Positions 3,802 through 40,628 of a stretch of DNA of 41,642 bases are shown piece after piece; positions within the stretch are counted from its first letter, which is position 1; each line of letters opens with the position of its first letter. Location of the stretch: the NCBI GenBank assembly GCA_903907995.1, contig CAIVQH010000029.1:1-41642 (forward strand), in the 5' to 3' direction. The notes under the pieces were generated by a model. The model saw only the letters and a list, made by a program, of their open reading frames with translations. It made no database searches and was not told where the DNA came from. A program made the position numbers and the translations under genes. The DNA is from an uncultured Verrucomicrobiota bacterium (GTDB lineage Bacteria; Verrucomicrobiota; Verrucomicrobiia; Limisphaerales; UBA9464).

Positions 3802-3803
3802 TT

Positions 3804-4394: not shown

Positions 4395-4406
4395 CATTTA
4401 CGAGTT

Positions 4407-13652: not shown

Positions 13653-15113
13653 TCAGTGTCCGGGGCCGATGAAGGCGGTCTTCACGGTCTCGATATGTTT
13701 GTTGTTGGCGTAAACGCCGATGGAAAGCGGGGTGGTGGCGCGGGGAAGCAGTTTTGGGTCGATCTCCACCAGCACGGACGTCTGGGCGAGCTTGTCGCCT
13801 GGCACGATGAAGTCCTGGGCCCCGAGCGTGACGACCTTGCCTTCAATCCCTTCCAGCCGGAACTGAATCGGCAGGGTGCCGTGGGTCTTGTTGATGATCT
13901 TGACCGTGTAGAGGTTGCTGATGCGGCCTTCGGCGGCCTGCTGGAAGAGCGCGCCGGGCGCCCGCAGGAAGATCGCCTGCACGTCCGCGCGCGTCAGCAC
14001 AAGGAAGGCGAACAGCGTGATCAGACCCGAGAGGATGACCGTGTAGAGCTTCATCCGGTTCGTGTAGCGCAGGGGCTGGCCGTGCTCGATGCCGTTGAGC
14101 GAGGCGTAGCGGATGAGGCCGCGCGGGCGGCCGATCTTGTCCATCACGCTGTCGCAGGCGTCGATGCAGGCGGTGCAGTTCACGCACTCCATCTGGACGC
14201 CGTTGCGGATGTCGATGCCGGTCGGGCAGACGCTCACGCACTGGTGGCAGTCCACGCAGTCGCCCTTCGCCTCGGCGAGGCGCAGTTCGAGACGCTGGTC
14301 GCGCTTCCACGGGGCGCGCTTTTCGCCGCGCTTGTGATCGTAGGCGACCACCATGGTGTTCTCGTCGAGCAGGGCCGACTGGAACCGGCCGTAGGGGCAG
14401 ATGAAGGTGCAGGCCTGCTCGCGGAAGCGCGCGAAAATCGCGTAGAACACCAGCGTGAACAGCACCATGAACCCGAGGCCCGTCAGGTGGTTCAGCGGGT
14501 CGTCGCGGATGATGTGCAGGAGCTGGTCACTGCCGATGATGTAGCTGAGCAGCGTGTTGCCGATGAGGAACGACAGCGCGAAGAACACCGCGTGCTTGAA
14601 GAGCTTCCGCGCCGCCTTCTGAAGCGTCCACGGCGCGGCGGCGAGGGCGCGCTGCTGATGGGCGTCACCCTCGATGAGGTATTCCAGCTTCCGGAAGACC
14701 ATCTCCATCATGATCGTCTGCGGACACGTCCAGCCGCACCACAAGCGGCCAAACGCGGAGGTGAACACCATGATGCCGGCGAAGAACGTCAGCATCGCCA
14801 CCGCGAAGATGATGCCATCCTCCGGCCAGAAGATGTGGCCGAGGATGGAGAACCGCCGCTCCACGATGTTGAACATCAGGAGCGGGTTGCCGTTGATCCG
14901 CACAAAAGGCCCCGTGAACATCGTCCCGATGAGCACCCAGCTCATCCAGGTCCGCCAGCGATACCACTGGCCGGCGGGCTGCTTCGCGTAGATCCAGCGG
15001 CGGCTGCCATCCTTGTCGGCCGTCGCCAGATGTTCGCGAAAGTCCCGCCAGTCCACCTCGCGGGAGGCGAGGTGCTGGGTCTCCGGATCGTGCTGTTCGA
15101 CGGGCGCGCTCAC
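13653..15113 (-). CDS. ccoG: CcoG/FixG/RdxA iron-sulfur assembly protein for cbb3 oxidase
   Basis: A 486-residue membrane protein. CcoG is a cupric reductase that supplies Cu(I) for cbb3 oxidase. Motifs in order are an early membrane segment (WMSWVLIGTMFTGPFVRING), WCGWTCPQTIMMEMVF, ACTFICPYGRFQ, and two ferredoxin-type clusters, CVDCHQCVSVCPTG and CVNCTACIDACD. Further membrane segments and a C-terminal Ig-like FixG_C domain (KTHGTLPIQFRLEG onward) follow. The start codon is GTG, overlapping the ccoP stop by 4 bp (15110-15113), which is the evidence for that start and for translational coupling. Confidence 0.95.
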   Translation of the reverse strand: MSAPVEQHDPETQHLASREVDWRDFREHLATADKDGSRRWIYAKQPAGQWYRWRTWMSWVLIGTMFTGPFVRINGNPLLMFNIVERRFSILGHIFWPEDGIIFAVAMLTFFAGIMVFTSAFGRLWCGWTCPQTIMMEMVFRKLEYLIEGDAHQQRALAAAPWTLQKAARKLFKHAVFFALSFLIGNTLLSYIIGSDQLLHIIRDDPLNHLTGLGFMVLFTLVFYAIFARFREQACTFICPYGRFQSALLDENTMVVAYDHKRGEKRAPWKRDQRLELRLAEAKGDCVDCHQCVSVCPTGIDIRNGVQMECVNCTACIDACDSVMDKIGRPRGLIRYASLNGIEHGQPLRYTNRMKLYTVILSGLITLFAFLVLTRADVQAIFLRAPGALFQQAAEGRISNLYTVKIINKTHGTLPIQFRLEGIEGKVVTLGAQDFIVPGDKLAQTSVLVEIDPKLLPRATTPLSIGVYANNKHIETVKTAFIGPGH

Positions 15114-15700
15114 TCGTAGATGATGGTCGAGGCCGGCGCCTGATCCTCACGAATCTTGGGGTTCGGCGGATGGGTGCCCCGCAGGGTGTAGATGTAGCTC
15201 GCCACGCTGTGGATATCGGACGGCGTCAGCACGCCCTTCCAGGTGAGCATGCCCTTTTCGGGCACGCCGTTGATGATGGTCTTGAGGTTGTCGCTGAACT
15301 TGTCGCCGTGGATCCAGTAGTCGTCGCAGAGGTTCGGCCCGACCAGCCCGCCGCCATCCGCGCGGTGGCAGGGGGCGCAGTAGGTGCCGAAGATCTGGTG
15401 GCCCTTGGCGAGGATCACCTGGTCCTTGGAGGGTTCCAGCGTCGCGAGAGAGGCCTCGAACTGGGCCTGTGCGGCGTCCTTGATGGCGTTGCCGAGGGCC
15501 ATCTCCTTGTCGTAGGCGGCAACCTGGAGGTCGCCCTTGCCCAGGACATGGTAGTAACCCATGTAAAACACGGCAAAGAGCGTGCAGAGGTTGAAGAGCC
15601 ACACCCACCATCGGGGCAGGTTGTTGTCGAGTTCCTGGATGCCGTCGTACTCGTGGTCGAGCAGCAGCGGATCTTTCTTCGGGTCTTTCGGGTCATTCAT
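15110..15700 (-). CDS. ccoP: cbb3 oxidase subunit CcoP, single-haem form
   Basis: A 196-residue membrane-anchored cytochrome c. The start at 15700 gives MNDPKDPKKDPLLLDHEYDGI and has AAGGAG about 9 bp upstream; an in-frame start 11 codons earlier is less likely. The FixP N-terminal domain (DHEYDGIQELDNNLPRWWVWLF, helix about 31-52) is followed by one cytochrome c domain with C108-x-x-C111-H112 and a probable axial M151 (GMLTWKG). Canonical CcoP is diheme at about 300 residues; here the second domain is absent and the next gene follows directly, so this is a natural single-haem form and not a truncation. It overlaps ccoQ by 8 bp. Confidence 0.93.
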   Translation of the reverse strand: MNDPKDPKKDPLLLDHEYDGIQELDNNLPRWWVWLFNLCTLFAVFYMGYYHVLGKGDLQVAAYDKEMALGNAIKDAAQAQFEASLATLEPSKDQVILAKGHQIFGTYCAPCHRADGGGLVGPNLCDDYWIHGDKFSDNLKTIINGVPEKGMLTWKGVLTPSDIHSVASYIYTLRGTHPPNPKIREDQAPASTIIYE

Positions 15701-15890
15701 GGCGGGAATCTCCTTCCTGGGCGGGCGTTTCATCGTCGGCGAGCGGCAGGAGCTCCATGGTGTTCATGAGGGACTTCCGCTGGGCGAAGGTCCAGATGAG
15801 GGCCCCGGTGAAGAAGGCGAAGAAGATGCAGATCGAGATGACGCCGTAGAGGCCGACGCCACCCAGATCGCTAAGCACGTTTTTGATCAT
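15693..15890 (-). CDS. ccoQ: cbb3 oxidase small subunit CcoQ
   Basis: A 65-residue protein with one membrane helix (about 13-36, GLYGVISICIFFAFFTGALIWTF) and a short charged tail. The ATG at 15890 is in the correct position between ccoNO (7 bp upstream) and ccoP (8-bp overlap). CcoQ helps stabilise the oxidase complex. It is recognised by size, topology and position, because CcoQ sequences are poorly conserved. Confidence 0.85.
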   Translation of the reverse strand: MIKNVLSDLGGVGLYGVISICIFFAFFTGALIWTFAQRKSLMNTMELLPLADDETPAQEGDSRHE

Positions 15891-21230: not shown

Positions 21231-21866
21231 ATGTCCTTCCTTTTCCCAAAGTGGGTGAACACGCTGCCGCTGAAGGTGGCGGTGGGTGCCGTGATGGTCG
21301 CAACTGCGGCCACTGCGGGCATCACCTATTACATGACGCCGAAGTGGACGCGCGTGGGCTACACGCCCAAGCAGCCGATCGCGTTTTCGCACAAGATCCA
21401 CAACGAGCAGCTCGGCATCGACTGCCGCTACTGCCATTCGGCGGTGGAGCGGTCTTGGTTCTCGAACATCCCGGCCAGCTCGACCTGCATGAACTGCCAC
21501 AGCCTCGTCCTGAAGGACGACCCGAAGCTGGAGCTCGTGCGGAACTCCTACAAGTCCGGCCAGCCCATCCCGTGGGTGCAGGTCCACAAGGTGCCGGACT
21601 ACGTCTATTTCAACCACTCGGTCCATGTGAACCGTGGCATCAGTTGCGTCCACTGCCACGGCCAGATCAACCACATGGACGAGGTGCAGCACGCCAAGCC
21701 GCTGTCCATGGGCTTCTGCCTGGATTGCCATCGCGCCCCCGAGGAAAAGATTCGCCCCGTTGAGCTGGTCACGCAGCTCGATTGGAAAGGCGTCGTGGAC
21801 GGCAAAAAGCTGGTGCATGACTGGAACGTGAAGCCCGGCCAGAGCTGCTCGACCTGCCACCGATGA
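21231..21866 (+). CDS. actA: Alternative complex III subunit ActA, pentahaem cytochrome c
   Basis: A 211-residue membrane-anchored multihaem cytochrome c. One N-terminal helix (about 15-34, VAVGAVMVATAATAGITYY) is followed by five CxxCH sites: CRYCH, CMNCH, CVHCH, CLDCH and CSTCH. The last site is six residues from the C-terminus region (CSTCHR). ActA carries electrons from the iron-sulfur subunit towards cytochrome c or the oxidase. First gene of a ten-gene operon; its stop overlaps the actB start by 4 bp (21863-21866). The ATG at 21231 is the only start upstream of the membrane anchor. Confidence 0.95.
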   Translation: MSFLFPKWVNTLPLKVAVGAVMVATAATAGITYYMTPKWTRVGYTPKQPIAFSHKIHNEQLGIDCRYCHSAVERSWFSNIPASSTCMNCHSLVLKDDPKLELVRNSYKSGQPIPWVQVHKVPDYVYFNHSVHVNRGISCVHCHGQINHMDEVQHAKPLSMGFCLDCHRAPEEKIRPVELVTQLDWKGVVDGKKLVHDWNVKPGQSCSTCHR

Positions 21867-24800
21867 AGACCATTCCCCCTGTTTGTCCCGAGCCGGAAGT
21901 CGGCCCGAAATACTGGCGTTCCCTCGACCAGCTCGCCGAACGTCCCGAATTCCGCCAGTGGCTCGACCAGGAGTTCCCCTCCGGTGCCAGCATCGCCCCC
22001 GAGGGCGAATCCCGCCGGAACTGGATGAAGCTGATGTCCGCCAGCTTCCTGCTGGCCGGCCTCGGTGGCTTCGCCGCCGGCTGCCGCCGCCCGGAATCCA
22101 CGCTGACCCCCTTCGCCAAGCAGCCCGAGAACTACGTTCACGGCGGCTGGCAGTACTTCGCGACCAGCTTCCCGAGCCGCGGCAGCGCCCAGGCGCTCGT
22201 GGTGAAGTCGAGCGACGGCCGGCCCACCAAGATCGAGGGCAATCCGCTGCACCCGGACAGCAACGGATCGACCGACATCACCGCGCAGGGCACCCTGCTG
22301 AACCTGTACGATCCCGACCGCGCCTACCGTCACACCTTTCAGGGCAGCGACGTGAAGGCCGAAAAGGTCGTGGATTTCCTCGCCACGACCGCCAAGAAGT
22401 TCGCCGCCAACGGCGGTGAAGGCCTCGCGATCCTCGCCGAGCGCAACTCCTCGCCCTCCCGGGCGGCCTTTGAGGCCAAGTTCGCCGACAAGCTGCCGAA
22501 GGCGAAGTGGTTCCTCTACGAGCCGGTGGATTTCGCCATTGCCAGCCAGGCGGCCACCCTGGCGTTCGGCGCGAGCGTCACCCCGCACGTCCATTTCGAG
22601 AAGGCCAAGCGCATCCTGTCGCTGGACTGCGATTTCCTGAGCACCGACGCCGACACGGCGCACCACATCCGTGGTTTCGCCAAGGGCCGCAAGCCCGGCG
22701 ACGGCATGAACCGCCTCTACATGGTGGAGTCGCTCCAGTCGCTGACCGGCGGCAGTGCCGATCACCGCCTGCGGGTGCGTCCGACCGACTTGGTCAAGGT
22801 GGCCGCCCACATCGGCAGCTTCCTGGCGGACGGCGAACTCGGAGTTTCGCTCAAGGCGCTCGCCAAGGGCTCCCCGGCCTCCGCCAAATGGGCCGAGGAA
22901 TGCGCCAAGGATCTCGCCGCGCACAAGGGCGAGGCCGTGGTGGTGGCGGGCTATGGCCAGCCGCTCGCGGTCCACCTGATCGCCAATGCGCTCAACTCCC
23001 TGCTCGGGGCGGTCGGACCGGTGGTCCAGCTGCTGCCGAACCCGGAAAAGAGCGACGGCGGCATTGCCGAGGCGGTCGCCGCCTTGAACGGCGGGCTCGA
23101 CACGCTGGTCATCCTGGGTGGCAACCCGGCGTACAACGCCCCGGCCGACCTCGATTTCACCGCCGCCGCCAAGAAAGCCAAGATGGTCGTCCGCCTCGGT
23201 TACTACGAGGACGAAACCGCTCTCCTTTCGACCTGGCATCTGGCCGGTGCGCACTTCCTCGAATCGTGGGGCGACGCCCGCACGAGCGACGGCACGGTGG
23301 TGCCCGTGCAGCCGCTCATTGAGCCGCTGTTTGGCGGTCTGACCGAACTGGAAGTGCTGGCCCGCCTGCTGGGTGAGGCCAAGACCAGCCCCTACGAGAT
23401 CGTCCGCGCAAACTTCACGGGCGACGACCAGGCCTGGAAGCAGTTCCTGCACGACGGTTTCCTCAAGGACAGCGCCTACCAGCCCGTTTCGCCCTCGCTT
23501 GACGGCGGTGCGGTCGCCCAGGCGCTCGCCGGCTTCAAGCCCCTCGCCGCGTCCGGCTACGACGTCGTGCTCTATCGCGACGCCAAGGTCGATGACGGCC
23601 GCTACGCGAACAACGGCTGGCTGCAGGAAGTGCCGGACCCCGTGACCAAGCTGGTCTGGGGCAACGCGGTCATCGTTTCGCCCGCGACGGGCAAGAAACT
23701 GGGCATCTCCGAGCAGACCGGTGACGGTCGCAAGGACACGAGCGATAACGCGCACGCGCACGACGGCCAGTTCAAGAACCAGGTGATCAAGGTCACGATC
23801 GGTGGACGCTCGGTCGAGGGGATCGCCTGGGTCCAGCCGGGTTTTGCAGACAATACCGTCGGCCTCGCCCTCGGTTACGGCCGCAGCAAGGTCGGCCGCG
23901 TCGGCACGGGTTGCGGCTTCGATGCCTACGCCTTCTACGGCACCGCCGGCGGCCACATCGCGACCGGCGCGAAACTCGAGCCGGTCTTCAAGAAGGATTA
24001 CCTGGCAACCACCCAGGAGCACGGCCTCATGGAAGGCCGTCCGGTCATTCGCGAGGCCAATCTCGACCAGTTCAAGACGAAGCCCGACTTCGTCAACTAC
24101 ATGGACCTGGATGCGCATCTGCCGCATTACGTCCCGTACAACGAGGACGGTTCGATCAAGAACATCTACACGCATCCCTACAAGAGCCACCCGGAGACGA
24201 AGTCCGAGGTTCATCAGTGGGGCATGACGGTGGATCTGGCCTCCTGCGTCGGCTGTGCGGCCTGCGTGATCGCCTGCCAGGCGGAGAACAACATCCCCAT
24301 CGTCGGCAAGGACCAGGTCATGCGCGGCCGGGAGATGCACTGGATCCGCATCGACCGCTACTACAGCCACGACGAGGCCCTGGAGATCACCAAGGAGCAC
24401 GCGGCGGCCGACCCGCAGATGGCGGTGCAGCCGATGTTCTGCCAGCACTGCGAAAGCGCACCGTGCGAGAGCGTCTGCCCGGTCAACGCCACCGTCCACG
24501 ACGAGGAGGGCCTCAATGTGATGGCCTACAACCGCTGCATCGGCACGCGGTACTGCGCCAACAACTGCCCGTTCAAGGTCCGGCGGTTCAACTTCTTCGA
24601 CTTCAACAAGCGCGAGAGCGAGTATGCCAAGGTCCAGGGCCAGTTCTTCCTGAACACCGGCAACTTCTACAAGGGACCGGCGGCCGAGAACCGCAACGAG
24701 GCCCCGAACTGGGAAATCATCAAGCTGGTGAAGAACCCCGACGTCTCGGTCCGCATGCGCGGCGTGATGGAGAAGTGCACGTTCTGCGTGCAGCGCATCG

Positions 24801-25189
24801 AGCAGGCGAAGATCGCCCAAAAGGGCATTGCCCGCGACAGCGCGAACGTCCGTGTGCCCGAGGGCGGCATCAAGACCGCCTGCCAGCAGGCCTGCCCGGC
24901 CGAGGCGATCACCTTCGGCAACCTGCTCGATCCCGAGAGCGCGGTGTCGAAGCTGAAGAAGGACCCGCGCAACTACACGGTGCTCGGCTTCCTCGACATC
25001 AAGCCGCGCGTCACCTACCTGGCGCGCATCCGCAACCCGAACCCGGCCATGCCCGACGCGAAGACCACGCCGGATTCGATCCGCGACTACGAGAAGTTCC
25101 GTCACGAGAACCCCTTTACCGATGAATCCGGCCACGGCCACGAAGGCCAACACGCGGCGGTTCCCGTCGCGCCGAAAGGAGCAGCATAA
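21863..25189 (+). CDS. actB: Alternative complex III subunit ActB, molybdopterin-oxidoreductase-like iron-sulfur protein
   Basis: A 1108-residue protein. The N-terminus has a variant twin-arginine signal set about 50 residues in ([26 protein letters not shown]), with a possible lipobox Cys. This layout is typical of the TAT-variant-translocated molybdopterin-like subunits. The middle (about 80-700) is molybdopterin-oxidoreductase-like; in this family the cofactor is generally not bound. The last third carries ferredoxin-type clusters from C795: [42 protein letters not shown] and CTFCVQRI with CQQACPAEA (about 1006). This is the usual set of three [4Fe-4S] and one [3Fe-4S] clusters. It overlaps actC by 1 bp. 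Confidence 0.95.
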
Positions 25190-26673
25190 TGGGTAACGCC
25201 GCCTCCATACCCGCTTCCGCCGTCGCTGGCAAAAAGCACGACCACGATCACTCGGCCCCGCCGAAGATCGTCGCGGTGGACTGCCCCAAGGAGCTCGAGC
25301 GCGAGCCGCTCGTCCTGAACGGGCGTTCGCTCCACTGGATCACCGACCGGATCGCCAATGTCTGCGAGGACGACATGCCGGCCTGGTGGTGGCCTGCGTT
25401 CATCATCAGCGCGGGCGTGATGGGGATGATGTTCTCCCTGCTGGCCTACCTCGTCTCCACGGGCGTGGGTGTGTGGGGCCTGAACAATCCCGCCGCCTGG
25501 GCGTGGGACATCACGAACTTCGTCTTCTGGATCGGCATCGGCCACGCCGGCACGCTGATCTCGGCCGTGCTCTTCCTGCTCCGGCAGAAGTGGCGGACCT
25601 CGATCAACCGCTCGGCCGAGGCCATGACCCTCTTCGCCGTGGCCTGCGCCGGCATCTTCCCCGTGTTCCACACCGGCCGTGTGTGGTTCGCGCTCATGCC
25701 GGGCTACCTGATCCCGATGCCGAACTTCAACTACATCTGGCCGCAGTTCCGCTCGCCGCTGCTGTGGGACGTGTTCGCCGTGTCGACGTACGGCACCGTC
25801 TCGCTGATCTTCTGGTACGTCGGCCTGATTCCCGACCTGGCGACCCTGCGCGACCGCGCCCGGAACAAGGTCCGCGGCTTCTTCTACGGCCTGTTCTCGC
25901 TCGGCTGGACCGGTTCCAACCGGCACTGGAGCAACTATGAGAAGGCGTACATGATCTTCGCCGGCATCAGCACGCCGCTGGTGCTCTCCGTGCACTCGAT
26001 CGTGTCGTTCGACTTCGCCGTGTCCAACGTCCCCGGCTGGCACACGACCATCTTCCCGCCCTACTTCGTCGCCGGCGCGATCTTCTCCGGCTTCGGCATG
26101 GTGCTCACGCTCCTGGTGCCGATGCGCACGCTGTTCAAGCTGGAGGACATCGTCACCGTCCGGCACATCGAGCTGATGTGCAAGGTGATCCTCGCGACGG
26201 GTTCCATCGTTGGCTACGCCTACGGCATGGAGTTCTTCATCGCGTGGTATGGCGGCAGCCCCTACGAGCTGTACGCCTTCAAGAACCGCGCGTTTGGCCC
26301 CTATTGGTGGGCCTACTGGAGCATGATCACCTGCAACGTGATCAGCCCGCACTTCTTCTGGTTCAAGTGGTGCCGCTCCAACATGGTGTTCGTCTTCCTC
26401 GCCTCCATTGTCGTGAACATCGGCATGTGGTTCGAGCGGTTCGTCATCATCGTGACGTCGCTGCACCGCGACTACCTGCCGGCGAGCTGGGGTTACTTCA
26501 CGCCCACCTGGGTGGATGCCTTCACCTTCATTGGCAGCTTCGGCCTCTTCATGACGCTGTTCCTGCTGTTCATCCGCTACCTGCCGGCCATCGCCATGTC
26601 GGAAGTGAAGGGCGTGACGCCGCAGGCTGATCCGCACCACCCGCTGGGTGGCGCGAAAGGAGGGCACCACTGA
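25189..26673 (+). CDS. actC: Alternative complex III subunit ActC, NrfD/PsrC family
   Basis: A 494-residue polytopic quinol-interacting membrane subunit with about ten helices, opening after a hydrophilic His-rich stretch (KKHDHDHS). Seen in the sequence are [47 protein letters not shown] (the conserved quinol-site GHAGT motif), and [25 protein letters not shown]. The ATG shares its A with the actB stop codon (TAATG at 25187), and the stop shares its last base with the actD start. NrfD-type subunits oxidise quinol without bound haem. Confidence 0.95.
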
Positions 26674-27206
26674 TGAGCGCCACCGCCAAAACCTACGGGC
26701 TCCTGGCCCAGTTTGACACGGCTGCCGGAATTTTCGAGGCCGCCCTCAAGGTCCGCGACGCGGGCTACAAGAAATGGGACGTGTTCACGCCGTTCCCGAT
26801 CCACGGGATGGACGAGGCCATGGGGCTGAAGAGCTCCAAGGTCGGCTATTTCACCATCTGCGGCGGTGTCACCGGCTTTTTCACGGGCATGACCATGATC
26901 TGGTTCATGAACATGTTCGACTACGGCCTGGTGGTCGGCGGCAAGCCGCTCTTCACGCCGCTGTTCGCCTTCCCGGTGAGCTACGAGCTGACGATCCTGC
27001 TCAGCGCGTTTGCGACGCTCTTCGGCATGCTGGTGCTGAACCGGCTGCCCAAGCTTTACAACCCGCTCTTCAAGGTGGCGCGCTTCAAGGCGGCCACGGA
27101 CGACAAGTTTTTCATCTGCATCGAGGCCGCCGATCCGAAGTTCGCCGAGGCCAAGGCGGTGCTCGAAAACGCCGGTGCCACGGCCATTGAAATCGTGGAG
27201 GACTGA
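26673..27206 (+). CDS. actD: Alternative complex III subunit ActD (DUF3341)
   Basis: A 177-residue protein beginning with a soluble alpha/beta stretch (YGLLAQFDTAAGIFEAALKVRDAGYKKWDVFTPFPIHGMDEAMGLK), the DUF3341 signature. Two membrane helices follow (about 56-80 and 100-122) and then a charged tail. ActD is a small accessory membrane subunit of alternative complex III. It overlaps actC by 1 bp and ends 1 bp before actE. Confidence 0.95.
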   Translation: MSATAKTYGLLAQFDTAAGIFEAALKVRDAGYKKWDVFTPFPIHGMDEAMGLKSSKVGYFTICGGVTGFFTGMTMIWFMNMFDYGLVVGGKPLFTPLFAFPVSYELTILLSAFATLFGMLVLNRLPKLYNPLFKVARFKAATDDKFFICIEAADPKFAEAKAVLENAGATAIEIVED

Positions 27207-27207
27207 A

Positions 27208-27852
27208 ATGCGCTACTTCCTCGCCCTCTTTGCCCTCGCCGTTCTCGGTGTGATCGGCGTGCTCGGTTTCCGTGGAGACACCTCACGGCAGTCGCCCCGC
27301 ATGGCCGAGTTTTATCCCGACATGTTGACGCAGCCGAAGCTGCGGCCGCAGACCACGACCAAGTTCGCCGGTTTCGCGGACGGTGCCTCGTCCCGCCTGT
27401 TTCCGGCCGGCACGGTCGCCCAGACCGTCGGCTTCCGGGACAACACGACCTACAAGGACGACCCCTACAACACCGGCAAGGTGGGCACGGGCACGAACTT
27501 CGTCGAGGTAAACCCGGTGCCGGTCACCGCGGAGCTCGTCCGGCGCGGCCAGGACCGTTTCAACATCTATTGCCAGCCCTGCCACGGGGCCCAGGCCGAC
27601 GCGGTGGGCGGCATCGTCAAGAAGCTGGGGGCGACCACGGTCGCGAACCTGCAGGATGCCCGCATCGTCAAGATGCCCGACGGTGAAATCTTCAACACCA
27701 TCAGCAACGGCAAGAACACGATGATGCCCTATGCCGGGAACGTTCCCGTGGCCGACCGCTGGGCCATCGTGGCCTACGTCCGCGCCCTCCAGCTCAGCCG
27801 GCTGGGCGCCAAGGACGACGTGCCCGCACCCGTGCTCGAAAAGCTGAAATAA
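27208..27852 (+). CDS. actE: Alternative complex III subunit ActE, monohaem cytochrome c
   Basis: A 214-residue lipid- or helix-anchored cytochrome c. The start at 27208 opens directly onto a membrane anchor (MRYFLALFALAVLGVIGVLGF); an upstream in-frame start would overlap actD by 11 codons. Haem site C122-x-x-C125-H126 (YCQPCHG) and probable axial Met 173 in NTMMPYAG. ActE receives electrons from ActA and passes them to the oxidase or soluble cytochrome c. Confidence 0.93.
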   Translation: MRYFLALFALAVLGVIGVLGFRGDTSRQSPRMAEFYPDMLTQPKLRPQTTTKFAGFADGASSRLFPAGTVAQTVGFRDNTTYKDDPYNTGKVGTGTNFVEVNPVPVTAELVRRGQDRFNIYCQPCHGAQADAVGGIVKKLGATTVANLQDARIVKMPDGEIFNTISNGKNTMMPYAGNVPVADRWAIVAYVRALQLSRLGAKDDVPAPVLEKLK

Positions 27853-27862
27853 GGCGATACCC

Positions 27863-29155
27863 ATGAACTTCCCACTGATTTTCAAACGCCTGCTCGCGCT
27901 CTTCGCGTGCGCCGGCCTGCTGGCCTTCGCGTCAGCCCGCCTGCTCGCCGCCGAGGCGGAGCACGAGGCCCCTGCCGCCGGTGCCGCCGCCGACGCACAC
28001 ATGGAGGGCGCAGCCATCCACCACACGGTCGTCAGCGCCGAGGCCAAGAATCCGACCTATTTCGAGCAGTTCCTCTACAGCTACCTCACGGCCTTCATGT
28101 TCTGCCTAAGCATCGTGATGGGCGGCATGTTCTTGGTGATTGTGCACTATCTGTTCGATGCCGGCTGGAGCGTGCCGATCCGCCGCATCAACGAGCAGAT
28201 TGCCGCCCTGATTCCGTGGATGTGGGGGTTTTCCGCGCCGATCCTGCTTTTTGCCCCGGAAGTCTATCCTTGGTGGAACATTGATCCAGCCACCGACCAC
28301 GCGCTGAACGTTAAGAAAATCCTGTTCAACCCGATCTCGTTCCGGGTGCTGCTGATGGCCATTTTCGGCCTCTGGACCTTCATGGCGTTCCGCTTCCGCA
28401 AGTGGTCCATCGCCCAGGACAAGGACGGGGCGGCGATCTGGTCGCGGAAGTGCCGCTTCCAGGCGGCCTGGGGCATCTACGCCTTTGCCTTCTCGCTGAC
28501 GGTGGTGGTCTTCCTCCTCATGAAGTCGCTGATGCACCAGTTCTTCAGCACGATGTACGGTGTGTATTATTTCGCCGGCAGCGTCTGGACGACCCTGGCG
28601 ACGGTGTACGGCATCATGCGCTTCCTCGAAAAGCGCGAGCTGAAGGGCGTGATCTTCAAGAACACGGTCCACTTCCTCGGCACGCTGTTCTTCGCCTTTA
28701 CGGTGTTCTACGCGTACATCCACTTCTCGCAGTACTTCCTGATCTGGAACGCGGCCATCCCGGAGGAAACCTTCTGGTACGTGAAGCGTGAGGCCGGCAG
28801 CTGGTGGGGCGTGGGCATGCTGATCCTGTTCGGGCATTTCTTCTTCCCGTTCCTGGTCCTGCTGCGCATCGACACCAAGATGAGCATGGTAACGATGGGA
28901 CCCATGATCGTGTGGGCCTGGCTGATGCACTACGCGGACATGACCTTCAACGTCATGCCGGTGCTCTATCCCAACGGCCTGCATCTGACGCTGTGGGATC
29001 CGATCTGCTGGTTCGGTCTGGCGGGTTTCTTGGCCTGGCGTTTCTGGCGCAACTACAAGTCGGCGGCTCCTTATCCGCTGAAAGATCCGCGCCTGAAGGA
29101 AGCCCTTAACCATCACGAAGTCCCGGCACCCGGTGCCGCGGCTGCCCATCACTGA
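27863..29155 (+). CDS. actF: Alternative complex III subunit ActF, polytopic membrane protein
   Basis: A 430-residue membrane protein with a leader helix (about 8-28, LALFACAGLLAFASARLLAA) then a HEA-rich loop. About ten hydrophobic segments follow, including FLYSYLTAFMFCLSIVMGGMFLV, FRVLLMAIFGLWTFMAFRF and GVGMLILFGHFFFPFLVLL. ActF is the second NrfD-like subunit of alternative complex III and lies across from ActC in known structures. It follows actE by 10 bp, and the small membrane protein gene starts 8 bp after it. Confidence 0.92.
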   Translation: MNFPLIFKRLLALFACAGLLAFASARLLAAEAEHEAPAAGAAADAHMEGAAIHHTVVSAEAKNPTYFEQFLYSYLTAFMFCLSIVMGGMFLVIVHYLFDAGWSVPIRRINEQIAALIPWMWGFSAPILLFAPEVYPWWNIDPATDHALNVKKILFNPISFRVLLMAIFGLWTFMAFRFRKWSIAQDKDGAAIWSRKCRFQAAWGIYAFAFSLTVVVFLLMKSLMHQFFSTMYGVYYFAGSVWTTLATVYGIMRFLEKRELKGVIFKNTVHFLGTLFFAFTVFYAYIHFSQYFLIWNAAIPEETFWYVKREAGSWWGVGMLILFGHFFFPFLVLLRIDTKMSMVTMGPMIVWAWLMHYADMTFNVMPVLYPNGLHLTLWDPICWFGLAGFLAWRFWRNYKSAAPYPLKDPRLKEALNHHEVPAPGAAAAHH

Positions 29156-29535: not shown

Positions 29536-30960
29536 ATGAGCCAATCCTGCTGCAACACCTCCACCGAAGTTCCGGCCGAAGTTTCGGGCCGGGAGCCGGT
29601 GCTTTTCCTGTTTGGCAGCGCCATCCTGTGGCTGCTGGCGGGGCTGGCCCTGTCGCTGCTCGCCTCCGCGAAGCTGAACCTGCCCAGCCTGCTGGCCGGC
29701 TGCGAATGGTTCACCTATGGCCGGGTGGAAGCCGCCGCGCGGACCGCGCTGGTGTTTGGCTTCGCCTCGCAACTGGGTTTCGGCGTCGCCCTCTGGCTGC
29801 TGACGAAGACTGGTGCCGCCCGGCTGTCTGGCCCCGGAGTGGCCGTGATCGCGACTATTTTCTGGAACCTCGCCCTGACGCTGGGCGTGGTGGGCATTCT
29901 CGCTCTGGGCAGCAACGGTCTGCCCGGCTTGGAACTGCCCAAACAGCTGGCCCCGACGCTCGGCCTCGCCATCGGCGTGCTGTCTCTCATCGGTTTCGCC
30001 ACCTTCGCCAAGCGCGAGCCGGGCACTTCCTCCCCCACGCAATGGTATCTGATGGCCGCGCTGCTCGCGTTTCCGCTGCTGTACCTGACGGCGCAAGTGA
30101 CGCTCCTGTTCTTCCCCTCGCGCGGTGTGGTGCAAGCCATCGCCGCCGGCTGGTTTGGTCAGGGCGTGCTGTTCCTCTGGCTCGCGCCGCTGGCGCTGGC
30201 TTCGCTGTACCATTTCATTCCTGCCTCCACCGGCGGCACGGTGCGTTCACCGGCGCTGGCCCCGCTCGGTTTCTGGTCCTGGCTGATTTTTGCAAGCTGG
30301 ACCGGTGCTTCCAGCCTGGTGGGTGGTCCGGTGCCCGCTTGGGTGATTACGGTCAGCGTTGCCGCCGGCGTGCTGCTGCTGATCCCGGTGACCCTGATCA
30401 GCCTGAACCTCTCCATCTGCGGGCCGGCCAAGTGCACGACAACGAAATACTTCGCCCTGTTGGCGCTGGCCGCGTTCACGCTCGGCGGATTCGCCTTCGC
30501 GCTGACTTCGCCGCGCTGCGCACAGGCGGTGCTGCACTTCACCCAGTTCAACGTCGCGCTGCGTGAGCTGTTCCTGTTCGGCTTCGTCGCGCCCGCGCTC
30601 TTCGCGGCCTTCTACGCCATCGTGCCGCAACTGGCCGGTCGCGAGTTTCCCTGCCGCCTCTCCCCGAAGGGGCACTTTGGCTTCACGGTTCTGGGTCTCG
30701 GCTTGCTGCTCCTCGCCTCGGGCGTGGGCGGCTGGAAGCAGGGCTGGCTGCTGGCCGATCCGAAGGCCGATTTCGCCGCCGTTTCCGCCGGTCTCAAACC
30801 ATGGCTCTGGCTGCACACGCTGGCCCTGGCCATCTACGCCTTTGGCCAGCTGGCGATTGTCGCCAATTCCGTGTGGCTCATCTTCGAATGCGTAAAGCCC
30901 CTGCGGCAGCCCGTGCTGGCGCTGTTCACCGAAACCCGGACGGCCGTGGCCGGCAAATGA
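29536..30960 (+). CDS. CcoN-like membrane protein lacking all haem and copper ligands
   Basis: A 474-residue polytopic protein with about 12 helices and clear homology to cbb3 subunit I. When aligned with the intact CcoNO in this window, FGRLRPLHTNA matches YGRVEAAARTA (H59 to A68), and WYGHNAV matches WFGQGVL (H206 to Q209). WAGPHHLL matches WTGASSLV (H256/H257 to S259/S260). SHYTDWTIAHVHTG matches LHFTQFNVALRELF (H344/H346 to L342/E344), and the cross-linking Tyr250 becomes A253. Neighbouring residues, including the His of SHYTD/LHFTQ, are conserved, which supports the alignment. It therefore cannot bind haem b, b3 or CuB in the usual way. It lies in the act operon, before a CcoO-like cytochrome. 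A structural, assembly or electron-wiring role is inferred. The reading frame is intact, so it is not a pseudogene. Confidence 0.85.
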   Translation: MSQSCCNTSTEVPAEVSGREPVLFLFGSAILWLLAGLALSLLASAKLNLPSLLAGCEWFTYGRVEAAARTALVFGFASQLGFGVALWLLTKTGAARLSGPGVAVIATIFWNLALTLGVVGILALGSNGLPGLELPKQLAPTLGLAIGVLSLIGFATFAKREPGTSSPTQWYLMAALLAFPLLYLTAQVTLLFFPSRGVVQAIAAGWFGQGVLFLWLAPLALASLYHFIPASTGGTVRSPALAPLGFWSWLIFASWTGASSLVGGPVPAWVITVSVAAGVLLLIPVTLISLNLSICGPAKCTTTKYFALLALAAFTLGGFAFALTSPRCAQAVLHFTQFNVALRELFLFGFVAPALFAAFYAIVPQLAGREFPCRLSPKGHFGFTVLGLGLLLLASGVGGWKQGWLLADPKADFAAVSAGLKPWLWLHTLALAIYAFGQLAIVANSVWLIFECVKPLRQPVLALFTETRTAVAGK

Positions 30961-30964
30961 ACCG

Positions 30965-31621
30965 ATGAACTCCGGCCCGCTCCTCTATTTCGGTCTGGTG
31001 GCGACGCTCGCGGCGTCCTGGTTCGGCTTTGTCGTCGTGCCCCACCAGCAGCTCGGCGCCCTCCAGCCCGAGACGGGTGCCAATGCCGCCGGCACGGAAG
31101 TCATCTATCCGGCCGCCCGCAGCGGCGAGGCCGCGCAGGGCCGGGCCGTTTACCAGTCGCTCGGCTGCGTGTCCTGCCACAGCCAGCAGGTGCGCTCGGA
31201 AAACAACGGCAGTGACCTCGCCCGGGGTTGGGGCCACCGCCGGACCGTGGCGCGGGACTATCTTTTCGACCCGACGCCGCTGCTCGGTGTCAGCCGTCTC
31301 GGCCCCGATCTCGCCAACTACGGTGAACGTCTCGGCACGAATTCCTTTCCGATTACCCGTCTGTACCGTCCGACCCTGGTCGTGACCAATTCTACCTGTG
31401 CGGCGGTTCCCTTCCTTTTCGAAGAGCGGCCCATCCGCCGCAACGGTCCTTCCCCGGAAGCCCTGGCTTTGAAGGGTGACGACGCTCCGGCTGCCGGCAA
31501 GGAAGTCATTCCCACGCTGCGCGCCCGTCAGCTCGCCGCCTACCTGCACAGCCTCGGCACCAGCGCCGATCTCCCTGAAGCCCCGCTGCCGCCCGCGGAA
31601 GACGCCAACGCCCCGAAATGA
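30965..31621 (+). CDS. CcoO-like cytochrome c with axial Met replaced by Cys
   Basis: A 218-residue protein with one N-terminal membrane helix (about 5-25) and a CcoO/FixO fold: QSLGCVSCHSQQVRSE (C68, C71, H72), WGHRRTVARDYLFDPTPLLG and RLGPDLANYG. In intact CcoO the second ligand is Met in GSIMPQYTW; the matching stretch here is STCAAVPFL, which puts C145 at that place. The only methionine in the whole protein is the initiator, so no Met ligand is possible. His/Cys coordination would give a low-potential haem; a five-coordinate haem is the alternative. It starts 4 bp after the CcoN-like gene and overlaps the next cytochrome gene by 4 bp. Confidence 0.85.
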   Translation: MNSGPLLYFGLVATLAASWFGFVVVPHQQLGALQPETGANAAGTEVIYPAARSGEAAQGRAVYQSLGCVSCHSQQVRSENNGSDLARGWGHRRTVARDYLFDPTPLLGVSRLGPDLANYGERLGTNSFPITRLYRPTLVVTNSTCAAVPFLFEERPIRRNGPSPEALALKGDDAPAAGKEVIPTLRARQLAAYLHSLGTSADLPEAPLPPAEDANAPK

Positions 31622-32358
31622 GAGCCGAAGCGAACCCACTTTTTTCTGTCCGGTCCCGCCGCGGTCAACGCGGTTTCGGGCTGCTGAATTCCTTCCTCCT
31701 GTCGGGCGCGGCGGCCCTGCTCGTGTGGGGTGGGCTCTACGTCGGCAAGTACGGGGGCCGTTTCGATGGCGACGAGTTCGATGAGGCTCCCCATGGTCGG
31801 CCGGCCAAAGTGGTTGCGGGGGCCGAAGATCCGAATGCCAAGGTGCTCAAGCGTGGCGCGATCATTTTTCAGCAGTGCGCCTTGTGTCATCAGGCCGATG
31901 GCAGTGGTGATCCCACCAAGAACGTCCCGCCGCTCGCGGGTTCGGAGTGGGTGCTGGCGGAATCCCCAAACCGCGTCATCCGCATTCTCCTGAGCGGGCT
32001 CACCGGGCCGGTGACCGTCAAAGGGAACGTCTGGAATGGCGGCATCATGGCCTCCTGGCGCAAGACGGCCGACAATCCGAGCGCCCTGACGGACGAGGAA
32101 ATCGCGGCGGTGCTCAGCTACGCGCGCAACAGCTGGGGCAACAAGGCCCCCATGATCACGCCTGAGCAGGTCAGCGCCATCGCGAAAGAGGAAAAGCGCC
32201 CCCCTACGGTTTCCTGGTCGGCCGAAGAGCTGTTGAAAGTCCCCCTGACCGGCGCCCCCGCCGCGTCCGCCGCGCTTACGCCCGACCAGTTGAAGGCCGC
32301 GTTGCAGGCACTGCCCGCCGCCGACCTTGAGGCCCTCCTCAAGGACGTGAAGAAGTAG
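31618..32358 (+). CDS. Membrane-anchored monohaem cytochrome c ending the act operon
   Basis: A 246-residue protein with one N-terminal helix (about 22-42, [21 protein letters not shown]) and a cytochrome c domain with C87-x-x-C90-H91 ([13 protein letters not shown]) and axial Met 144 (WNGGIMASW), so the haem site is complete. The C-terminal about 70 residues are Ala/Pro/Glu-rich with the low-complexity [22 protein letters not shown]. It resembles oxidase-associated CcoP-like or caa3-type cytochrome domains. The start overlaps the CcoO-like stop by 4 bp. It would be the exit cytochrome for the act-linked module. Confidence 0.85.
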
Positions 32359-36898: not shown

Positions 36899-37108
36899 CG
36901 CTCAAACGTGAACTTTTGTACCATTCCGCGGATGCAATCCGCATTCCGATTGGACCCGTCAGGGCGTTGGGAATTGCTTGCGGGCCAAGTGGAAGGACTT
37001 TTTCGGTTGCGGTGACCGATTTCCGCGCGTAGATGCACCGGGTGAAAACGTTCAAAAAAATCTGGCGAAAAATCTTGCCGAAGAGCCAAGCAATAAAGGA
37101 TTTGTGTG

Positions 37109-37137
37109 TTGACAGCTCGCTTCAAGATTCCTAAAAG
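37109..37137 (+). promoter_or_regulatory. Sigma-70-like promoter of EPS module 2
   Basis: A perfect TTGACA (37109-37114) and TAAAAG (37132-37137) are 17 bp apart. Transcription from about 37144 would give a leader of about 50 nt before the barrel ATG at 37196. It is the best -35 match in the window. Confidence 0.55.
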
Positions 37138-37195
37138 AAGCGCGCATTTTAGCTCGACAAATATCCGGCGTAAGAGTGTAACCTGTTTTCCTCGT

Positions 37196-38401
37196 ATGAA
37201 TAAGCTTATCCGTGCTGCCGGCATGCTGTCCCTTGGGACGGCCAGCCTCGCGGTCCAAACCTTTGTCTGCGCTGCCGACGATGGCAAGTCGTGGAACATT
37301 TCGGCTGCGCTGAGGGGTTTCTACGACGACAACATCTACACCCGGCCCAACGGCCCGGACAAGCTCGACAGCTTCGGGTTCGAGATCAGCCCTTCGATCA
37401 AGTACCGCATCGCCACCGACGACACCACGGTAAGGTTCTCGTACACCTATTCGGCGAAGTATTATGACGGCCGGCCGCAAGGCACGGACAAGTGGGACCA
37501 GAGCCATATCATCGATGCGGCCCTGAAGCATTCGTTCAGCCCCCGCGTGTCGTTGGATCTGAGTGATCGCTTTGCGGTTGCCCAGGAGCCGGAGCAGCTC
37601 GGCCTGGGTGGCACTGAATTCCGGGCCAACGGCAACAACAAGAGCAATCGTGCCAACATCGCCGGGACGATCGGGTTGACGTCGCAGTTCGGGCTGGTGA
37701 TCGGCTACGGCAACAACTTCTACGATTACGACGACATTAGGTACGCGAGCTCGCTGAACCGCATGGAGCACAATCCATCGGTTGACCTGACCTACCAGCT
37801 CAAGCCAGCCACGGTGCTGGTTGCCGGCTACGCCTACAGCATTGTCGATTTCGACACGGTGACTCCGAACCGTGACAATCAGTCGCATTTTATCCGGGCC
37901 GGTGTTGATCAGAAATTTTCCGACCAATTGACGGCCTCCGCCCGCGTCGGCGCCCAGATCGTGAATTACGAGCTTCCGGGCCAGAAGGACATCACGTCGC
38001 CCTATGCGGACCTGAGCCTCAAGTATGCGTTCACGCCAGATGCGAGCCTGTCGGTGGGGGTTTCGCACAAGCACAACGCGACGGACGTGATTCAGGCCGA
38101 GGATCAGGAAAGCACGGCCGTTTACGGGGTGTTTGCCTACAAGTTCACGGCCAACCTGAGCGGCAAGCTCATCGCCCAGTACCAGAATTCGGAGTTCATC
38201 TCCTCGGACCCGAATCTCAACGGCAGGACGGAGGATTATTACTCGTTCGGCCTCAATCTGGCCTACATGATCAACAGCAACATCTCCCTGGATGCCAGCT
38301 ACTACTACGACAAGCTCGAGAGTGACAACAGCGTCGCCCTGCTTGCTCCGCGCAGTTTCTCGCGCAACCGGGTGTTCCTCGGGGTCCGTTTCTCGTACTG
38401 A
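37196..38401 (+). CDS. Outer-membrane beta-barrel protein of polysaccharide module 2
   Basis: A 401-residue protein. The ATG at 37196 is chosen because it opens onto a signal peptide (MNKLIRAAGMLSLGTASLAVQTFVCAAD) and lies about 50 nt after the promoter; the upstream in-frame start at 37106 lies before the predicted transcription start. The mature protein is a run of amphipathic strands (ISAALRGFYDDNIYTRP, VRFSYTYSAKYYDGRP, TVLVAGYAYSIVDFD, ISLDASYYYDKLESD) ending in FLGVRFSY, with a C-terminal aromatic for barrel assembly. Similar in kind to the barrel at 2296-3801, although I cannot measure the identity. A role in exopolysaccharide secretion is inferred from the neighbours. Confidence 0.85.
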   Translation: MNKLIRAAGMLSLGTASLAVQTFVCAADDGKSWNISAALRGFYDDNIYTRPNGPDKLDSFGFEISPSIKYRIATDDTTVRFSYTYSAKYYDGRPQGTDKWDQSHIIDAALKHSFSPRVSLDLSDRFAVAQEPEQLGLGGTEFRANGNNKSNRANIAGTIGLTSQFGLVIGYGNNFYDYDDIRYASSLNRMEHNPSVDLTYQLKPATVLVAGYAYSIVDFDTVTPNRDNQSHFIRAGVDQKFSDQLTASARVGAQIVNYELPGQKDITSPYADLSLKYAFTPDASLSVGVSHKHNATDVIQAEDQESTAVYGVFAYKFTANLSGKLIAQYQNSEFISSDPNLNGRTEDYYSFGLNLAYMINSNISLDASYYYDKLESDNSVALLAPRSFSRNRVFLGVRFSY

Positions 38402-38423
38402 ATTCAATTTCGATGTTATTCAT

Positions 38424-38456
38424 GGAGGCTGGATAATATCCTAGCCTCCTTTTTTT
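38424..38456 (+). terminator. Terminator/attenuator abutting the module 2 kinase start codon
   Basis: A 7-bp stem (GGAGGCT 38424-38430, AGCCTCC 38443-38449) with a 12-nt loop is followed by seven T residues, 38450-38456. The kinase ATG begins on the very next base. The GGAGG that could serve as a Shine-Dalgarno is inside the left arm. An in-frame TAG at 38442 forbids any earlier start. Confidence 0.75.
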
Positions 38457-40628
38457 ATGGACTTACAAAAGACCCCGTCGTCAACGGAAGGGAAGCTGCA
38501 TTTTCTGGATTATTGGCGCATCATCCGCATCCGGAAAGTGATCATCCTGGCGGTTTTCCTGCTGGTCGTGATCACCACCACGGCGGTGACCTTCGTGCTG
38601 CCGCCCTCCTATTCCAGCACGGCACGCATCCGCGTCGAGCGTGACACGCCCGACATCACGCTGTTTGGCATGCCCTCGGCCTCGGCCTCGTACGATCTGT
38701 ACTACCTGATGACCGAGTTCGAGGTGCTGAAATCCCGCAAGATCCTCGACCCGGTCATCGATCAGCTGAATCTCAACAAGAAATATGCGGAGAAGTACAA
38801 GTCCACCCGCGATTATACGACGCAGGAATCTTATGACATCCTGAGCCGAGAGCTGGAGGTGAAGCAGTTCCGGAACACCAGCATCATCGAGATCAGCGCC
38901 CTCTCCTCCGAGAAGCAGCTGGCGGCGGACATCGCCAATGCGGTGGCCCGGGGCTATGAAAAATACCGTGACGAACTCCGCACCGGCAAGGAGGACCGCG
39001 GCTACAAGGCCCTGACCAACAAGCTGGCCGCCCTGGCCATTGAGCTGAAAAAGAAGGGGGCGACCGTCGACAAGATGAAGATCGACGGGCAGATCCCCGA
39101 CATCGTTGACAGCGGGCAGGAATTCCAGTCCCTGTCGACCGATGAAATCCGCCGGCTGGGCATGCTGAAGACGGACACGGAGACGCGTCTGAGCCAGGCG
39201 GAAACGATCCTGAAGGGCCTGAAGGCGATCCAGGGCGATGCCCTGCGCAATGCCATCAACGTGGCCCATCCCACCCCCCAGCTCACCCAGCTGATGCAGG
39301 ACCTCAGCCTCACCGAGGTGAAGAAGGCCTCGCTTCTGCCCGACTACGGACCCGCGCATCCGGAGGTCAAAAAGGTGAATGATGTGCTGGCCACGATCAA
39401 CGCACAGATTGAGGAGGCGGTGGCGGGGATCATGAACACCATGGACATGCAGGTCCAGGCGGACCGCCAGATCCTGAAAAACGTCCAGGACAAGTTCACC
39501 TCCGCCAAGCAGGAGGACGCGCAGAAGCGCTCGGATTATGCGCCCTACCGGAATGAAAAGCGCGAGTTCGACACCATGCGCAAGATGTATGACTCGCTCT
39601 ACGCCCAGGTGACCCAGGAAGAGGTCAACAGCAGCATCTCCAAGAAGGCCAGTGTGGAATTCATCGATCAGGCGCTGCCCGGCATCCGCCCGGTGAAGCC
39701 CAGCAAGATTCTGAACATCAGCCTGGGCTGTGTGGCGGGTCTGCTGCTGGGTGTCGGTCTGGCGTTCTTCATCGAATACCTCGACACGAGCGTCAAGACC
39801 ATCGACGACGTCGAGCAGGCGTTGCAGGCGCCGGTTCTCGGCGTCATTCCCCAAAACGTCGGGGCGCTCATCCACGAGGGGCCCGAGAGCCCGCACGCCG
39901 AAGCCTACCGCGTGCTGCGTACCAACGTCCTGTTCTCCCGCAAGGATGCGAACCTCCGGACCCTGACCGTGGTCAGCGGTGGTGCCGGCGAAGGCAAATC
40001 GACCACGATCTTCAACCTCGCGACCATCTTTGCGCAGCAGGGCAGCCGCGTGCTGATCGTGGATTCCGACCTGCGCCGTCCCAGCCTGCACAAGCTGCTG
40101 AACGTCTCGAACAACCTGGGCCTGACCAACTACCTGCTGAAGCAGAACAAGCTGGAGGAGGTCGTGCAGACCACCCCGCAGCCCGGCATGGACTTCCTGC
40201 CCAGCGGCAAGCTGCCCAGCAGCTCGATGGGCATCCTCAATTCGGCGGCGATGCGGGCCTTCATCGAGGAGACCAAGAGCCGCTACGACTTCGTCTTCTT
40301 CGATTCCCCGCCAATCATGGGTGTCAGCGACGCTTCCATCTTGGCGAGCGAGGTCGATATGGCCATTCTCGTCGTGCAGTACCGCAAGTACCCGCAGCAG
40401 ATGACGCTCCGCGCCAAGCAGATGGTGGAGAAGGTCGGCGGCAAGCTCCTGGGTGTCGTGCTGAACAACATCAACATCTCGCAGGACAGCTACTACTACT
40501 ACTACAGCGGCTACTACTACGATTACTATTCGAAGAGCGATGACAGCAAGCCGAGCTCCGAGAAGGGGGCTGCCGGGTCCAAATCGGGATCGGGCAAGGC
40601 GGGCCTGGACATCAAGCAGAAGTACTGA
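38457..40628 (+). CDS. Wzz/Wzc-type co-polymerase with BY-kinase domain (module 2)
   Basis: A 723-residue inner-membrane co-polymerase/tyrosine kinase. The Wzz domain opens with LDYWRIIRIRKVIILAVFLLVVITTTAVTFVL (first helix about 25-48), continues through a coiled-coil periplasmic region (about 170-390) and returns by a second helix at about 418-440 after the KPSK motif. The kinase has Walker A (GGAGEGKSTT, about 508), Walker A' (LIVDSDLRRPS, about 533) and Walker B (VFFDSPPIMG, about 612). A tail of ten tyrosines (about 675-692, YYYYYSGYYYDYY) follows. It is a paralogue of the kinase at 4407-6569. No Shine-Dalgarno is seen next to the ATG; the preceding terminator suggests controlled read-through. 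Confidence 0.94.
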   Translation: MDLQKTPSSTEGKLHFLDYWRIIRIRKVIILAVFLLVVITTTAVTFVLPPSYSSTARIRVERDTPDITLFGMPSASASYDLYYLMTEFEVLKSRKILDPVIDQLNLNKKYAEKYKSTRDYTTQESYDILSRELEVKQFRNTSIIEISALSSEKQLAADIANAVARGYEKYRDELRTGKEDRGYKALTNKLAALAIELKKKGATVDKMKIDGQIPDIVDSGQEFQSLSTDEIRRLGMLKTDTETRLSQAETILKGLKAIQGDALRNAINVAHPTPQLTQLMQDLSLTEVKKASLLPDYGPAHPEVKKVNDVLATINAQIEEAVAGIMNTMDMQVQADRQILKNVQDKFTSAKQEDAQKRSDYAPYRNEKREFDTMRKMYDSLYAQVTQEEVNSSISKKASVEFIDQALPGIRPVKPSKILNISLGCVAGLLLGVGLAFFIEYLDTSVKTIDDVEQALQAPVLGVIPQNVGALIHEGPESPHAEAYRVLRTNVLFSRKDANLRTLTVVSGGAGEGKSTTIFNLATIFAQQGSRVLIVDSDLRRPSLHKLLNVSNNLGLTNYLLKQNKLEEVVQTTPQPGMDFLPSGKLPSSSMGILNSAAMRAFIEETKSRYDFVFFDSPPIMGVSDASILASEVDMAILVVQYRKYPQQMTLRAKQMVEKVGGKLLGVVLNNINISQDSYYYYYSGYYYDYYSKSDDSKPSSEKGAAGSKSGSGKAGLDIKQKY

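Follow-up and report, generated by a model that had tools for sequence, protein, structure and literature searches.

An alternative complex III-linked CcoN homologue without haem and copper ligands, probably a scaffold for a cytochrome relay in Verrucomicrobiota

A homologue of CcoN, the catalytic subunit of cbb3-type oxidases, is encoded just behind an alternative complex III (ACIII) operon in an uncultured Verrucomicrobiota bacterium, and it has the predicted fold of CcoN while all six histidine ligands of haem and copper and the cross-linking tyrosine are replaced. This pseudo-oxidase is probably now a scaffold for a cytochrome relay at ACIII, a role that would have followed ligand loss in several lineages. 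The gene was studied within a window, by which the whole analysed stretch of 41,642 nucleotides is meant, and was compared with its counterparts across the phylum.

The window contains actABCDEF, all present and in order (Table 1). Directly after them and one small gene, the CcoN-like gene opens a module of three genes, here called N-O-P after its CcoN-, CcoO- and CcoP-like products. The first-pass annotation of this DNA had placed the CcoN-like gene within an ACIII operon, and the act genes, the small gene and the CcoN-like gene do follow one another here; its description of the operon stopped short of the CcoO-like and CcoP-like genes downstream, which it did not mention. In 40 loci fetched from relatives, actA is present at this place in 30, and several of the remaining 10 are cut short. 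Besides the CcoN-like protein, the genome encodes two members of the COX1 family, namely the fused CcoNO of the window and a protein on another contig that is taken for an aa3 type, and no oxidase gene lies directly downstream of the N-O-P module. In many operons the small gene separates actF from the CcoN-like gene, and its product shows one apparent membrane segment near the N-terminus when read from the sequence; in some Verrucomicrobiota loci this gene is absent, or a cytochrome c gene stands in its place. At both ends of the window (2296-6569 and 37106-40628), an outer-membrane barrel-like gene is followed by a polysaccharide chain-length/tyrosine-kinase gene, and the respiratory genes thus sit between two similar exopolysaccharide gene pairs.

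Table 1. Respiratory genes of the window, with positions, strands and the basis of each assignment.
Feature	Position	Strand	Basis
actA, multihaem cytochrome c subunit of ACIII	21231..21866	+	Pfam Cytochrome_C7 4e-14
actB, molybdopterin-like and iron-sulfur subunit	21863..25189	+	TAT-variant molybdopterin oxidoreductase and QrcC/DsrO-like Fe-S domains
actC, NrfD-like membrane subunit	25189..26673	+	Pfam NrfD 3e-22
actD	26673..27206	+	Pfam ActD 4e-62
actE, monohaem cytochrome c	27175..27852	+	Pfam Cytochrome_CBB3 2e-12
actF	27863..29155	+	Position and conservation; no Pfam match
Small membrane-protein gene, 118 aa	29164..29520	+	No Pfam or NCBIfam family
CcoN-like pseudo-oxidase, 474 aa	29536..30960	+	Predicted CcoN fold; six haem/CuB His and cross-link Tyr replaced
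CcoO-like monohaem cytochrome c	30965..31621	+	Pfam FixO 2.5e-12
CcoP-like membrane-anchored cytochrome c	31618..32358	+	Pfam Cytochrom_C 1.3e-9
Fused CcoNO, ligand-complete, same genome	15898..18060	-	Sequence alignment
CcoP-like gene beside the fused CcoNO	15110..15733	-	FixP_N and cytochrome c

The reading frame of the CcoN-like gene starts with ATG and has no internal stop. Its product is recognised by Pfam COX1 (6e-31) and scores 84 bits with the NCBIfam ccoN model TIGR00780, whose cut-off is 583; three ACIII-linked relatives that keep every ligand reach 220-254 bits, likewise below the cut-off. The ligand columns were read against the intact CcoN half of the fused CcoNO, with about 70 related ORFs aligned. 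In cbb3 CcoN, H59 and H346 are the established ligands of low-spin haem b, H344 is the proximal ligand of haem b3, and H206, H256 and H257 bind CuB. In the window protein, the low-spin haem b pair is missing (A68, E344), as are the haem b3 histidine (L342) and the three CuB histidines (Q209, S259, S260), and the cross-linked helix VII tyrosine that characterises a cbb3 catalytic subunit (column 250) is A253. Columns H59, H206, Y250, H256, H257, H344 and H346 therefore read AQASSLE, which agrees with the claim of the first-pass annotation that every haem and copper ligand is gone; the six histidine substitutions that it listed are identical in the present alignment.

Comparison with solved structures leads to the same result. 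A profile of 28 relatives that have lost most or all of these residues matched P. stutzeri CcoN (3mk7) among PDB sequences with E 4e-53 and carries degenerate letters at the positions of the 3mk7 ligands. An AlphaFold2 model of the window protein, built from 31 sequences and carrying no cofactors, has a pLDDT of 90.1 and a pTM of 0.89. Its best fold match in the PDB is again 3mk7 CcoN (3mk7_D; Z 52, rmsd 1.7 Å over 439 residues, TM 0.87), and the nearest solved folds are CcoN chains. The fold thus appears conserved, as had been proposed, and the window protein is predicted to be a CcoN fold from which the ligands are absent. A misalignment, or histidines located elsewhere, was considered and is ruled out by the profile, PDB and fold comparisons, which put no histidine at a ligand position, together with the existence of ligand-complete relatives in the same gene order. 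The ORF of genome G003, 97% identical to that of the window, also lacks the ligands, and so do the rest of the window's genus and genera g8, g2, g4 and g6 (39-63% identity); other relatives with the same gene order retain all seven residues.

Two states can accordingly be distinguished: in state F all seven residues (six His and the Tyr) are kept, and in state D most or all of them are lost, with none to three histidines left. A search through 116 genomes from the taxonomic order of the window gave matches in 106, the weak ones including ordinary CcoNO. Among loci whose N sequence was fetched, which were found by similarity to the family and are not a random sample, 155 genomes were scored: D in 103, F in 49, both states in 1, and in 2 no ligands other than the low-spin haem b pair. 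The 31 records with organism names among the matches listed divide into 21 D, 7 F and 3 with the haem b pair, some organisms being counted in both sets. Ten loci with other CcoN types or with truncated or split genes (L002, L037, L039, L050, L140, L155, L277 and L283-L285) were left out before counting, and six loci read differently between alignments, none of them as F. In 156 D loci, no histidine is left in 76, one in 70, two in 7 and three in 3. Ligand loss is thus widespread among relatives, and the two-state picture enlarges the first-pass annotation, since the same operon elsewhere in Verrucomicrobiota carries a ligand-complete version. Cultured D carriers with names are Cephaloticoccus capnophilus CV41 and C. 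primus CAG34 (L134, L143), and among the matches listed the ligands are gone in 7 of the 8 scored loci titled Opitutaceae, Opitutus or Cephaloticoccus. Five loci (L127, L131, L132, L224 and L225) retain H59 and H346 and have lost the CuB and b3 ligands, with N, S, Q, R and Y at the CuB, Tyr and b3 columns (HNSQRYH), plausibly an intermediate in which only low-spin haem b could remain. Both states occur in genome G087, which has a dead module in the ACIII operon (L111, G087:C174) and an F module (L110, G087:C548) with no Act genes within 1.2 kb upstream; a small ORF upstream of the latter is presumably CcoS-like.

The number of losses was approached through phylum-wide trees. Because state F recurs in this operon position on several branches of the ACIII tree, it is counted as ancestral. 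This tree needs 9 F/D changes, or 6-7 by its starred branches, and the starred branches of the O+P tree force at least 5. In the O+P tree, a single clade holding the large D group is rejected (AU p 1.2e-8); twelve long, redundant or outlying rows had been dropped beforehand, and every row retained has both O and P. The phylum-wide N tree, with the ligand columns excluded, needs 2 changes; it alone unites most D proteins in one clade and supports fewer losses than the other two, a conflict that long branches or exchange of the N-O-P cassette could explain. A single ancient loss, suggested by an order-level N tree with one D clade, was considered and rejected, as the phylum-wide ACIII and O+P trees disagree with it and the phylum-wide N tree itself needs two changes. 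In AU tests on N, holding the D proteins of genus g8 with the F proteins of g9 was rejected (p 5e-41), whereas neither holding family f1 together (p 0.063) nor holding F and D of Opitutaceae together (p 0.195) was; cassette exchange within f1, alongside repeated loss between orders, is therefore likely. The ligands were thus probably lost more than once, the alternative being that lineages repeatedly exchanged the N gene or the module. Two Opitutaceae records, L129 and L130, have ActC proteins that are 99% identical (dS 0.09) and N, O and P proteins that are 67-72% identical (dS at least 1.5 or saturated); such close relatives have apparently come by different N-O-P cassettes through exchange.

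The order act-sml-N-O-P, in which sml is the small gene, is common to both states. Act genes accompany N in 37 of the 40 loci fetched around N-like matches, the exceptions being L103 (another CcoN type), L095 (a contig end) and L110 (the F module of G087). Most synteny loci were chosen for having an N gene; one scan of named genomes began from ActC and covered the best 80 of 584 relatives, a choice that leans to ACIII near that of the window. Among the matches listed in that scan, N is present in 32 of the 32 Verrucomicrobiota-titled loci that reach beyond actF and the small gene, 31 of them scorable, and ACIII loci titled Planctomycetes, Myxococcota, Acidobacteria, Bacteroidota and others have no N after the act genes. 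An ordinary CcoN with all its ligands does occur at another place in one of these loci (L140). In every D locus listed that has enough room, ActF is upstream of the D gene (77/77) and P downstream of it (75/75); O is downstream in 70/75 by the distance rule applied. On this synteny, the N-O-P module may be a physical part of ACIII. The arrangement is not universal in the phylum: in the accessible text on Verruconatronum (PMC13274419), ActABCDEF is followed directly by caa3 genes and cbb3 has a separate locus, and genome G123, to which we return below, is without an N-like gene.

The haem c motifs of the neighbouring subunits have been retained. CcoO keeps CxxCH in 110 of 110 D rows, in which several genomes are counted twice, and in 51 of 51 F-state rows, four of them from other kinds of CcoN locus (L277, L283-L285); CcoP keeps CxxCH in 108 of 109 D rows and has Met in the axial column in 107 of 109. 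The CcoP-like protein of the window likewise keeps CALCH and its Met column, and the CcoO-like protein keeps CVSCH at residues 68-72 and has Cys145 in the axial Met column. This CcoO column is Met in 51/51 F-state rows versus 69/110 D rows; it is replaced in the other 41 D rows, by Cys in 26 of them and in 0/51 F-state rows. The Cys rows comprise all of family f1 (10/10, window included), all of family f63 (14/14) and L116 and L159, and 10 of the 14 f63 rows have exactly three Cys, two in CxxCH and the one in the axial column. Low-potential His/Cys haems occur in other c-type cytochromes, and the Cys may be a new axial ligand of CcoO, giving His/Cys ligation. A CcoO with its axial Met replaced may no longer be a good relay.

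The explanation proposed here begins with an ancestral CcoN that would have been the catalytic subunit of a cbb3-type oxidase, its N, O and P genes following the ACIII operon in Verrucomicrobiota. In several lineages, the window's included, the CuB/haem b3 and low-spin haem b sites would have been lost while the rest of the module stayed, and the dead CcoN would serve as a membrane scaffold or dock holding the haem c subunits CcoO and CcoP against ACIII. Quinol electrons would then pass from ActA/ActE through O/P to another oxidase, an aa3 encoded directly downstream in some families and a separate CcoNO or aa3 in the window genome. The relay through O/P, and the absence of haem from D-type N proteins, are what the sequences suggest. 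A structural, proton-path or assembly role had been put forward in the first-pass annotation and is plausible; the conservation of the whole N-O-P module, with its two c-type cytochromes, points to an electron-relay scaffold rather than to a proton path. A bolder reading, to which we give slightly less than even chances, is that a haem-copper oxidase core has been turned, several times independently inside this one phylum, into a cofactor-free subunit of an enlarged ACIII (+N-O-P), in which quinol oxidation would be wired to a different oxidase via re-tuned cytochromes (His/Cys CcoO in at least two families).

Four other explanations were weighed, all of them less likely than a scaffold on present evidence. 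One is that N is only an assembly or biogenesis factor that inserts, matures or stores CcoO/CcoP or the ACIII cytochromes. That the N, O and P genes remain together would suit such a factor, but a gene that shares an operon with those of its partners better fits a structural subunit, and we consider this role unlikely. About as improbable is an ion-conducting coupling unit, that is, a 12-helix CcoN fold with a kept or gained proton path driven by ACIII and no redox centres of its own. The predicted intact membrane fold speaks for this idea; against it, no clear acidic/His chain is conserved across D proteins, in which polar conservation is chiefly of Arg, Tyr and Lys, and Thr and Tyr positions that are invariant in F are kept in just 29-54% of D cells.

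Over the two alignments from which these values come, the loss falls selectively on histidine: D cells retain F-invariant His at 16% and 22%, against 73-78% for Pro and Trp and 59-66% for Gly. New ligands could in principle stand in for the lost ones, so that D proteins would bind haem or another metal in an unconventional way, for example through Gln/Glu at 206 and 346 in the window's clade, where rows of the window genus, g2, g4 and g8 do have Gln at 206 and Glu or Gln at 346. The replacements nevertheless vary by lineage (A/Q/S/F/T and others at 59; Q/N/G/S/E and others at 206), and the sole His conserved across D (window H380, 82-84%) is not one of the seven scored columns, and F proteins have it without exception; of the four explanations, this is the least credible.

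Selection on the N gene was estimated from pairwise dN/dS (NG86). Among D genes, the comparison of the window with G003 gives 0.075, and five other pairs range over 0.13-0.23. One pair of genes that retain the haem b histidines gives 0.09. Two F pairs yielded ratios, 0.03 and 0.10; for three others, as for one additional D pair, dS had reached saturation. These values indicate that D genes are constrained by purifying selection, mostly less than F genes, and the low ratios of the D pairs are in line with the earlier view that the dead subunit is kept under selection. A decaying, functionless relic held by operon position alone would account for the longer branches of D than of F proteins, for a dN/dS mostly higher in D (0.075-0.23) than in F (0.03-0.10), and for some copies that look broken. 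In Chthoniobacter flavus Ellin428 (L155:14565-16062) and in L121:6138-7633, the ccoN-like gene runs over two overlapping frames, which are either draft-sequence errors or real breakage; the N gene of G094 has an in-frame stop, and single in-frame stops occur in other N matches of both states. Set against this, open frames are long in nearly all D loci despite deep divergence, dN/dS is far under 1, the Trp/Pro/Gly framework is kept, N is present in every Verrucomicrobiota-titled locus with room among the matches listed, and O and P keep their haem c motifs, so that a mere vestige is very unlikely.

A scaffold that relays electrons would call for another oxidase, and a COX1 profile census of 80 genomes (51 D, 27 F and 2 with the haem b pair) bears on this. 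All 51 D genomes have another COX1 match, with E 1.1e-125 or better, and in two F genomes, G083 (93% complete) and G116 (99% complete), there is no COX1-family match apart from the ACIII-linked F protein. The census fits F proteins being working oxidases, with 2/27 versus 0/51 a weak contrast that concerns the COX1 family only, not bd types. In six loci picked because the census showed a neighbouring COX1 match (L298-L301, L305 and L306), a D module is followed by CoxA of an aa3 oxidase, with the His motifs in 6/6, and in L297 an F module is followed by CoxA.

Methanotrophs provide a further case. A search of 387 genomes of the phylum for pmoC (AmoC profile) marked six (G123, G157, G169, G187, G267 and G380), which are presumably verrucomicrobial methanotrophs. 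Five of them carry a D-state ACIII-linked N with the columns SESSHFV or ADAAHQT; no N-like gene was found in the sixth, G123, which fits the exception named in the accessible text of PMC8498564. In G157 and G380 the N-O-P module is followed by a same-strand CoxA with its His motifs present, the arrangement seen also in L298, L299, L305 and L306, and in G157 genes of the COX3 and COX2 families also lie downstream of the module. A second, working CcoN in the methanotroph genomes was sought and rejected: the best match to TIGR00780 in the six reaches 34 bits, against a cut-off of 583 and the 220-254 bits of ACIII-linked F proteins, and the other weak matches have lengths like those of A/B-type oxidases. 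In their accessible parts, four accounts list a cbb3 oxidase for verrucomicrobial methanotrophs (PMC6688271, PMC8498564, PMC10205796, PMC11102522); three of these place it beside ACIII, and one ties it to high oxygen affinity. The ACIII-side "cbb3" protein of methanotrophs is apparently without the ligands of a haem-copper oxidase.

In relation to known systems, the window protein resembles CcoN of C-family cbb3 oxidases (PDB 3mk7, 8smr, 9g6b) in its predicted 12-helix fold, its framework residues and the CcoO- and CcoP-like haem c subunits encoded downstream, and differs from it in lacking all six His ligands and the cross-link Tyr. The window operon belongs, by locus and order, to the ACIII-linked cbb3 cluster reported in methanotrophs and Opitutaceae (PMC8498564, PMC6688271); the accessible text of those accounts treats the cluster as a cbb3 oxidase, whereas here the ligands are gone. 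Supercomplexes of ACIII with caa3/aa3 oxidases are described from Rhodothermus marinus and Flavobacterium johnsoniae, and direct electron transfer without a soluble cytochrome has been proposed for them (PMC5928083, PMC8552683). They share with the present case a link, here one of gene order, between ACIII and an oxidase, but their oxidases are A-type and active, and the accessible parts of these papers describe no dead C-type module. The ActB1 domain of ACIII resembles molybdopterin enzymes and holds no prosthetic group, according to the accessible text of PMC5928083; as a periplasmic domain and not a membrane oxidase core, it is unrelated to the CcoN-like protein and serves as a precedent only for this type of change. 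A search of openly accessible journal papers returned no title or abstract opening that reports ligand loss in an ACIII-linked CcoN. What appears to be new is the pseudo-oxidase form of the ACIII-linked cbb3 module, the cluster itself being already known as a cbb3 oxidase.

Counts of haem-copper oxidases in genomes serve to infer aerobic or microaerobic respiration, with a cbb3 match often taken as a sign of high oxygen affinity. In the majority of the genomes scored here (103 of 155), the ACIII-linked "cbb3" gene lacks the oxidase ligands. Should the bolder reading above be true, the cbb3 listed for verrucomicrobial methanotrophs would not reduce oxygen, and their high oxygen affinity would need another explanation. 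The natural series of proteins with all ligands, with the low-spin haem b pair only and with none makes the change from enzyme to scaffold testable, and with it what the N-O-P module does for ACIII. The middle members of this series, the HNSQRYH loci, may possibly encode a haem-b-only membrane cytochrome.
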